NCBI GenBank assembly: GCA_012845835.1
Contig: JABAKD010000020.1
Location: 16,900,306 to 16,964,305 of the forward strand
DNA: 64,000 nucleotides
DNA from: Undaria pinnatifida
Lineage: Eukaryota; Sar; Phaeophyceae; Laminariales; Alariaceae
Direction: 5' to 3'
In this document: positions 17,301 to 20,300 of the stretch, in pieces
Position numbering within the stretch: position 1 is the stretch's first letter
How the letters are laid out: each line of letters opens with the position of its first letter
Notes under the pieces: model-generated
What the model was told of the DNA's origin: nothing
Databases searched by the model: none
What the model saw: only the letters and a program-made list of their open reading frames with translations
Made by a program: the position numbers and the translations under genes

Positions 17301-20300
17301 TCGAAGTTGGCATGTTTATTCACTCTTAAGTCGGTGGCTGGGTGAGAGAAAGCGCGGAGCCTCAGAAAGATATGGGTACTAGATATGGGTACTAGCCCAC
17401 AAAATGTAGGAGCGACCCCTTTCGTACGCACGCGTCGTGTGTAGGGAAGGAGGGGAATGGGGAGAATATTCCAGGGTTTTCACGGGTCATGACCCGACCC
17501 GCGGGTAGGGTCAGGAATCTCGCGGGTCGAGTCCTGTTGGGCCCGGAGATGTTCGAAATCTCACGGGTCGGGTCGGATCGGGTCGAGAGGTGTTCACATC
17601 TCACAGGTCGAGTCGGGTTATTTTACCCCGACCAGCGAGAATTGGCCTGACCCGTGAACAGCCCGGAAATAGTGTAACCTTTCTGGGACCCCATGATCCC
17701 ATGCATAACGACCGTAACAAAAAGAAAGGACTGCGGTCTTATATCGATCGTCTATAATAGGAAGCGCGGGCCAGCAGTGTTACGAGTGGTCACGGTGCTG
17801 CACGCGTGTCGCACGGCTCCCGGCATTACAGTGTGGGCACGCCCTCTAACTATCCCAGCGGCCCGGGCTGCTACGTGTGGCCGATGCTGCAAATTTGCAC
17901 TTTCTTTCGACGTGTTTTTCCTTCTGAAGTCCACAAGGGGTTATTGTGCAACCCGTGTCCTATATACTCGTAGGCCTTTGTTTTTTGTGTGCAGTGAGTT
18001 TGGAACTCCGCTGTGTAGGCATGTTGGCGGCGATACATCTACGCGTTTCGCACCCCCCCCCTCAATCCGTAACGCCTTAGGGTGGCCGATGCCAGCACGT
18101 TAGTAGCCTGCTCTGGGTTTATTCAGAGAGGTGTTTTGTGTCGCCTTTTGAAGAAATGAAAGGTCCATGAGCTACCGCCCACACCGCAGAGCGTTGTACC
18201 CCCCCCTTGACCTAGATAAAACTGCTGAAGCATAAAAACACGCCGCAAATTCAGCCGCAAGCCCCGAACCTGAAATTTTGGGGGGTCTTCCATGTTGTTT
18301 ATGCTGTCGTCTCTGCAGGCTGGAAGCTTTCCCGCCCCGCCGGCGTTCCTCGACGACAGCTTCACCTCCATCTCCCTGGTTAACTCCAAGGTTGGGGACT
18401 CCTTCATTCAGGACACGCTCAGCATGCGCTGCCCAATGCTTAGGGTGAGCCTGGCTGGGGCGCGACAGACTGGATGGGTGCCGGCGGCGCGAGGTGTCGG
18501 GAGCGCTCGACTACGCTCGGCTGCGCGAGTGTACTTGCCTGCGCTCGTTCGACGGGGTAAACTCGTTGTACAAACCACACCCCACGTAAAAATTGGGAAA
18601 TTTATGTAGCAGGTTTTTTTTAGAGTAGGATATGATTTGTTGTGTGCAGGCGTACTTTTGGAGTGCAGGGTTGTTTCGCCCAAGAAGGAAACGAGCACTT
18701 TTTTCTTGTCGGAGAGTGGCTCAATCCCAGTGGTCCCAACCCAGCCTTTTTTTATCCTTTCACCGCTGCCAAAAATACCCGCGCTATGTCCAAGTAGTTT
18801 GCCCCCCAAAAACGTGGGTGCACTGCTGAAGTTGTCCATGGTGTGATTTTTTCGAGGCTTTTCACTGGTCATCACCCGGCCCGTGGGTCGGGTAGGAGAT
18901 ATTTCAAAAACACGAAGGTGCGGGCCGTTTCGGGTCGGGAGGTGTTGGAAATTTCACGGGTCGAATCAGATCGGGTAAGCAGGTGTTCAAATATCACGGG
19001 TCGAACCGGATCACCCTGATGCGATCCGACTGGTATGGTATGGTATACCGAGAAGGGATCCGACCCGTGAAAAGCGTTGGTTTTTTTGCGTGACCACTCC
19101 CTTGCTCCTCCGTTGTCGCGTCATTTTTTTTGTTCTTGACACTCTTGTTCCGTAAATACGGGGGCAGAGCATTGTGACATGATGGAGTACTTCTATACGT
19201 CTTTTTTCGGCATTCGTTCCGTAAATCCGGAGCAGATACTTTATATGACGGGGTGCTTTAAAAGTATTTTCTCGAGATTTATTCTGTAAACCCAGGGCAG
19301 TGCATTGATATGACGGGTTGCTTCTACGTGATTTTTCATCGACACCTACTCCGTAAATCTGACAGAGCATTGATTTGACATGACTTGGTGTTTTTACGTA
19401 CTTTTTTCGACATATGTTGTGTCAATCCGGGGCAGAGCACTATTTTCACGGGTTGCTTCTATGTACGTAGTTTCTTCTCGACACTTCTTGCGTATATCCG
19501 GCAGAGCTTTGATATGGCAGGGTGCTTCTACGTACTTTTTCCGGCGTTTACGCTGTAAATCGAGCAGAGCATGTTGATATGACGGCGATTCTTCTGTTTG
19601 TTTTCTCGTGGACATTTGTTCCGTAAATCTAGGAACATGACGGGGTGCTTCTGCATGTTTTATCGACATTAATTTCCGTAATCAGAGGCAGAGCATTGGT
19701 ATGACGGGGTGTTTCTACGCATGTTTTGGGCATTCATTCCCTAAATCTGGGGCTGAGCTTTGATATGACGTGTTGCTTCTACGTAGTTTCTCCTCTACAT
19801 TTTCTTGCTTATATCGGGCAAATCGTTGATATGACGCGGTACTTCAGCCTGGTACGTATTTTCTAGACACTTTTTCCCGTAAATTATGCTATATGCTGGG
19901 GTGCTTATGCATTTTTCTCGACATTCATGCCGTTAATCTTGGCCAGAGCATTGACATGACGGGGTGCTTCTACGTCCGGGACGAGTCGATCGGGGTGTTA
20001 CTTCGGCGAACCCCGATGGTGGAGCGATTTTCGATCAGGAACTGCCGCAAGCTGACGGACGAGACTTTGAGGCACATCGTGAAGCACGGCAAGAAGATAG
20101 TCGCGCTCGACATCGGCGGCTGCTTCAACATGACGGCGAAAGGGGTGGACTCTTTCTTCAAGCTTCACCCTAACTCGCCGAGGTGAATTGAACCAGCAAC
20201 CTGCCGCGCCGCAGTGTATACTGTACAGTATGCGGCTCGGGTTAAGAAGCTGTTATTTCTGGCCAGGCTGAAATTCTTATGGCGGGCAGGGTGCGTCTTA

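Follow-up and report, generated by a model that had tools for sequence, protein, structure and literature searches.

A 13-unit tandem array that includes the real splice junction of a leucine-rich repeat exon in the brown alga Undaria pinnatifida

A 64,000-nucleotide stretch of the Undaria pinnatifida genome (GenBank assembly GCA_012845835.1, contig JABAKD010000020.1, positions 16,900,306 to 16,964,305 of the forward strand; hereafter the window, numbered from its first letter) carries a leucine-rich repeat (LRR) gene in which the end of intron 4 and the start of exon 5 are repeated in tandem. The array comprises 13 homologous units, and its last unit is the real splice junction; this observation was confirmed. 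The array is of a known but little-known kind, the mirage, in a lineage for which we found no such report, and it is most likely a by-product of intron growth via short direct duplications. The features concerned are as follows, with exons numbered as in an earlier note on this DNA.

18319 to 18444, plus strand: LRR exon 4, ending in ..CPMLR, with donor gtgagc in phase 0.
18445 to 19946, plus strand: intron 4, of which the array forms the last ~815 bases.
19133 to 19975, plus strand: 13-unit junction array with a period of ~65 bp, each unit consisting of ~35 nt of intron end, the acceptor, and 29 nt of exon start.
19912 to 19975, plus strand: terminal unit of the array, which is the real splice junction (E 3.6e-16 against the profile of the other 12 units).
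19947 to 20182, plus strand: LRR exon 5, SIDMTGCFYVRDESIG...HPNSP, with acceptor ggccag and donor gtgaat.

Under relaxed settings, Tandem Repeats Finder (TRF) detected one array at 19133–19975 on the plus strand (period 65, 12.9 copies, 60% matches, 15% indels, score 613), in agreement with the 13-unit array that the earlier note had placed upstream of exon 5. A chance origin was ruled out, as the maximum score among 200 dinucleotide shuffles of 19101–20000 was 86. An alternative TRF reading covered 19378–19974 with a four-unit period of 256 (2.3 copies, 70% matches, score 630), and the pairing of units that this period implies was not supported in the unit tree. With the standard setting, just 2.3 copies were reported (19637–19783) because the mean pairwise identity of the units, with gaps counted, is 57.4%. 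A profile built from all 13 units recovered 13 units at E ≤ 1.4e-6, the next match in the window having E = 2. When the profile was built from the 12 upstream units and the real junction was left out, the real junction unit was recovered at 19912–19975 with 54.8 bits and ranked third of the 13 by score. The real junction is thus no outlier, and the claim that each unit contains the acceptor and exon start in the sense direction, homologous to the real junction, held. The array ends with ..TACGT, 29 nt inside exon 5. Reading by eye placed an AG at the corresponding site in eight of the 12 upstream units (u01–u07 and u09); u08 and u10 have a different AG close by, and u11 and u12 have no AG there.

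The host gene (plus strand, 18319–26125) has six readable exons. The product resembles F-box/LRR proteins, among them F-box/LRR-repeat protein 2 (6o60, E 5e-22); Pfam returned mainly LRR-type families, none at the curated cut-off. The alignment to 6o60 crosses the join of exons 4 and 5 ungapped in three of four matching stretches; the fourth has a single-residue gap immediately ahead of the join. This alignment supports both splice sites and identifies SIDMTGC, encoded at the start of exon 5, as part of the regular LRR series. Exon 5 is internal to this series. A derivation of the exon start from a satellite was rejected, as its first residues match the register of the FBXL2 LRRs. Given that the exon start is in-register LRR code, we regard the array as copied from the junction.

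The divergence of the units was compared across all pairs and relative to the real unit. Mean identity was 57.4% when all pairs were averaged and 65.9% in comparisons with the real unit; the corresponding values were 59.6% and 72.4% for the exon part and 55.7% and 60.7% for the intron part. In the unit phylogeny, which had been proposed as a check, the terminal branch of the real unit is the second shortest of the 13, and the tree is star-like and poorly supported, its best split reaching 76/67. The units look old and unhomogenised, and their low pairwise identity, in one assembly, suggests an old and quiet array.

The complete assembly (511,146,479 bases in 68 contigs) was searched for copies elsewhere. 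A junction pattern with up to three mismatches gave five forward matches over the 511 Mb, all inside the array, with the real junction among them; there were no reverse matches and none for the reversed-pattern control. The array used as a DNA query matched nothing beyond itself in a search that skips very common words. Exon 5, searched as protein, gave one full match and two distant LRR matches. A dispersed satellite or introner was therefore rejected, with the reservation that the strict pattern recovers five of the 13 known array units, so that copies elsewhere might go undetected if strongly decayed. Dispersed copies, which the earlier note had named as a refuting result, were not seen at this sensitivity. 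The assembly also contains at least 150 matches to the EsV-1-7 domain family (PF19114), that is, all 150 candidates scored among 2165; this family is typical of brown algae.

Further exon-edge copies were found in the host gene.

21544 to 21638, plus strand: decayed direct copy of the exon 5 3' end with 5 nt of intron, within intron 5 (77.6% over 98 columns, E 6e-15).
24358 to 24727, plus strand: degenerate 46-bp array starting near the exon 7 donor (TRF 24379–24727, 7.7 copies, 63% matches).
24837 to 24885, plus strand: direct copy of the exon 7 3' end (last 42 nt) with 7 nt of intron including the donor, within intron 7 (81.6% over 49, E 5e-8).

The link between the 46-bp array and the real exon 7 donor was weak (E 0.72 for the first unit at 24358–24403 and E 0.0046 for 24387–24433), and this array is a possible donor-side counterpart of the junction array. 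A further donor-like unit lies near 24925, after the exon-end copy, in the region 24358–24960. For exons 4, 6, 8, and 9, no exon-edge copy was found within the gene; short inverted matches to the 3' flank of exon 9 occur near 38.8 kb. Intron 5 also contains three 82-bp tandem copies at 20769–21016 (93% matches), away from the exon edges.

To place these copies in context, 73 conserved-exon loci were compared with themselves: the 30 best of 129 kinase matches, the 30 best of 66 WD40 matches, and 13 plus-strand loci of 73 carrier matches, the last chosen before their flanks were seen. These loci are neither random nor independent; several WD40 loci are close to one another and probably belong to the same genes, and three kinase loci (L018, L021, and L034) carry stops. 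The flanks comprise introns and sequence outside genes, and the match edges are not exact exon edges. Acceptor-side exon-edge copies, with acceptors read by eye, were found in nine loci (L020, L032, L041, L046, L051, L056, L061, L068, and L072), and the search of other genes that the earlier note had recommended thus yielded junction-containing copies, including one three-unit array. An AG was kept in place in six of the 11 acceptor-side copies displayed, again by eye, and the copy in L068 starts at the first exon base. Two loci carry several copies.

L020, 1243 to 1527 (C57:11370570 onward): kinase gene in which a pyrimidine tract, acceptor, and DFG-motif exon start coding for IDFGLSRF form a unit present three times in tandem, at spacings of 85 and 107 bp; the three units share an identical 24-nt exon part.
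L072 (C32:3959170 to 3961379): mitochondrial carrier exon flanked upstream by two acceptor-side copies and downstream by a single donor-side copy (91%).

Donor-side copies were counted in eight of the 73 loci (six of the 60 kinase and WD40 loci and two of the 13 carrier loci), of which three span the donor cleanly (L058, L065, and L072). We discounted L049, where a WD-repeat motif is likely repeated for protein reasons, as well as two downstream copies: that of L020, for which a donor could not be identified, and that of L068, which falls outside the exon matched. In L042 and L081 the exon appears to be the last one, and the copy extends as far as the stop or beyond it. Inverted exon-edge copies, the negative control, were present in none of the 73 loci.

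Self-alignments covered 8.0% of the far flanks of the 60 kinase and WD40 loci in direct orientation and 1.2% in inverted orientation; direct flank coverage at the 13 carrier loci was 9.0%. Near the match edges, direct coverage was 12.6% at −60 to −1, 6.5% at 0 to 59, and 6.6% at 0 to 59 downstream, and it was 18.2% at −240 to −181, with the copies themselves included. None of the 9606 positions in match interiors was covered. The frequency of edge copies is thus similar to that of local duplication generally, and the upstream excess may be due to the frozen exon partner.

Several other repeats and one open frame were noted. Two short tandem repeats that resemble each other, at 17516–17619 and 18888–19012, carry a CACGGGTCG-type motif, and a related motif is present on the opposite strand in locus L031; the motif may be dispersed. 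Long trinucleotide runs are located at 22581–22811 (TGT × 76.7) and 61997–62352 (TAC × 118.7). On the minus strand, 28361–30898 is an 845-codon open frame with a SAM domain (PF07647, E 8e-14).

The earlier note knew of no named class for such a structure, and this was mistaken. In amphioxus, minisatellites at exon/intron boundaries, termed mirages, are described in the available parts of two reports for Adh3, the globins BflGb6 and BflGb9, troponin C, and PGBD5; they occur at both 5' and 3' boundaries, with splice signals in many units (PMC3087553, PMC3902484). The same parts describe the BflGb6 mirage as composed of the intron 3' end and the 5' part of exon 2, and those of PGBD5 as imperfect repeats in 60- and 108-bp versions (PMC3087553, PMC3902484). 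Units of 10–160 bp are given in the first, where reverse transcription PCR is reported to have shown normal splicing in amphioxus (PMC3087553). The brown-alga array shares the essentials: its unit crosses the exon–intron boundary, the authentic junction would be the terminal unit joined to an exon whose frame is backed by the F-box/LRR protein 2 alignment, and its ~65-bp unit lies within the range given in that text. It differs in its very distant lineage, in its 13 units, and in its mean identity of 57%, compared with the 81–100% quoted there for BflGb6. The comparison is based on the structural definition, as applied to one assembly. A brown-alga mirage was not found among the matches listed in a search of titles and abstract starts of open-licence literature.

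Other known systems resemble the array in part. The human IFI6 gene (6-16/G1P3) is reportedly one whose minisatellite provides multiple splice donor sites in a transcript. As here, a splice site is repeated by a minisatellite within a gene; in IFI6, however, it is the donor side, reported to supply donors to the transcript, whereas the Undaria units carry acceptors followed by stops, as read from the sequence. Intron gain by tandem genomic duplication, as set out in the accessible text of one study (PMC4974935) and modelled for amphioxus in that of another (PMC3087553), likewise involves local tandem duplication including splice signals, but in the present case it is apparently an existing intron that became longer. 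Introners and dispersed elements are marked by similar copies in unrelated introns, whereas all five pattern matches lay within the array.

The array is probably a mirage-type minisatellite that arose by short tandem duplication of the kind occurring in introns and was preserved where it crossed a constrained exon edge. An initial short tandem duplication would have copied ~35 nt from the end of intron 4 together with 29 nt from the start of exon 5, and more duplications would have led to 13 units. Since only the 3'-most unit would stay joined to the rest of the exon, it would, by topology, remain the working acceptor, and the other 12 units would have turned into intron and decayed independently. 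The array would then be an extreme case of a wider habit, in which the introns of this brown alga gain short direct duplications and a constrained exon preserves the evidence wherever a duplication crosses its edge. The duplicating step was presumably slippage or unequal crossing-over, the spliceosome presumably tolerates the array, and the copies probably lack function. Replication slippage, one of the options in the earlier note, is favoured if taken broadly to mean local duplication, given that other genes show exon-edge copies about as often as local duplication occurs in the flanks.

Alternatively, the array could act as a regulatory decoy, its upstream acceptors competing with the real one and frameshifted transcripts undergoing nonsense-mediated decay, so that gene output is tuned. 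The AG kept in eight of 12 upstream units suits such a role, as does the reading frame from exon 4, which meets a stop within 40 codons in all 10 AG-bearing upstream units tested, as expected of a poison acceptor; quick stops, however, also arise in random sequence. At the two AG columns, nine and eight of the 12 upstream units agree with the real unit, much as at neighbouring ordinary columns, and u11 and u12 have lost the AG; this comparison revealed no selection for or against decoy acceptors. As the one- and two-copy versions in other genes also resemble plain duplications, we consider regulation by decoys unlikely. The decoy acceptors suggested before are real as structures, but their AG columns decay like the others. 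Alternative acceptors could also yield alternative LRR sequences and thereby protein diversity, and brown-algal ROCO genes are described, in the accessible part of one report, as having LRR exon shuffling with alternative splicing (PMC11378527). The same early stops and the match of the host gene exons to F-box/LRR proteins make this extremely unlikely, and the proposal of alternative N-terminal LRR caps fails on the stops and on the internal position of exon 5. The stop and AG-column tests gave no indication that the copies serve as acceptors, and the interpretation in the earlier note was, overall, partly supported.

Two further alternatives concern the origin of the units. A splicing- or transcription-linked process could preferentially duplicate exon edges, as might be read from the nine loci with acceptor-side copies, the three affected junctions of the window gene, the comparable length of the exon part in two arrays that are unrelated (27 and 29 nt), and an upstream coverage somewhat above the flank mean. 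Edge coverage (6.5–12.6%) is nevertheless near the flank background, a frozen exon partner eases the detection of edge copies, and the exon part varies widely in length, reaching ~60 nt in L041, so that junction targeting appears quite improbable. It is very unlikely that the array is older than the exon start and that exon 5 acquired its 5' end from the satellite afterwards; the real unit is an ordinary array member by score, but the exon start codes for the expected LRR strand SIDMTGC and aligns with F-box/LRR protein 2 over the join, and no satellite copy was found elsewhere within the sensitivity of the search.

Several points weigh against explaining the array as a by-product of intronic duplication. 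The pyrimidine richness of u06 (0.67) and u08 (0.63) equals or exceeds that of the real acceptor (0.63), and why these units would be bypassed is unexplained; upstream decoy acceptors may be used, acceptor choice having been judged from sequence alone. In centrality, unit u03 roughly equals the real unit, and this measure by itself therefore cannot identify the ancestral unit. Strongly decayed copies could have escaped the strict pattern. Direct coverage upstream of the exon (12.6% and 18.2%) exceeds the flank mean, so a junction preference is possible. The rate of nine in 73 and the apparent age of the array were both read from one genome.

The array raises the question of how the real acceptor is chosen despite many near-copies upstream. 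Tentatively, and with more doubt than confidence, brown-algal introns may have grown largely by short direct duplications, with exon-edge copies, seen on the acceptor side in about one in eight of the sampled loci, frequent enough to provide a fossil record that can be dated. If this is true, the spliceosome would reliably ignore intact upstream acceptors, as many as eight or more, and the copies would form a standing supply of raw material for new introns and exons. Junction-spanning repeats were previously described in lancelets, and the large old array of this brown alga, together with the smaller ones in other genes of its genome, suggests that they are a general consequence of local duplication in introns.
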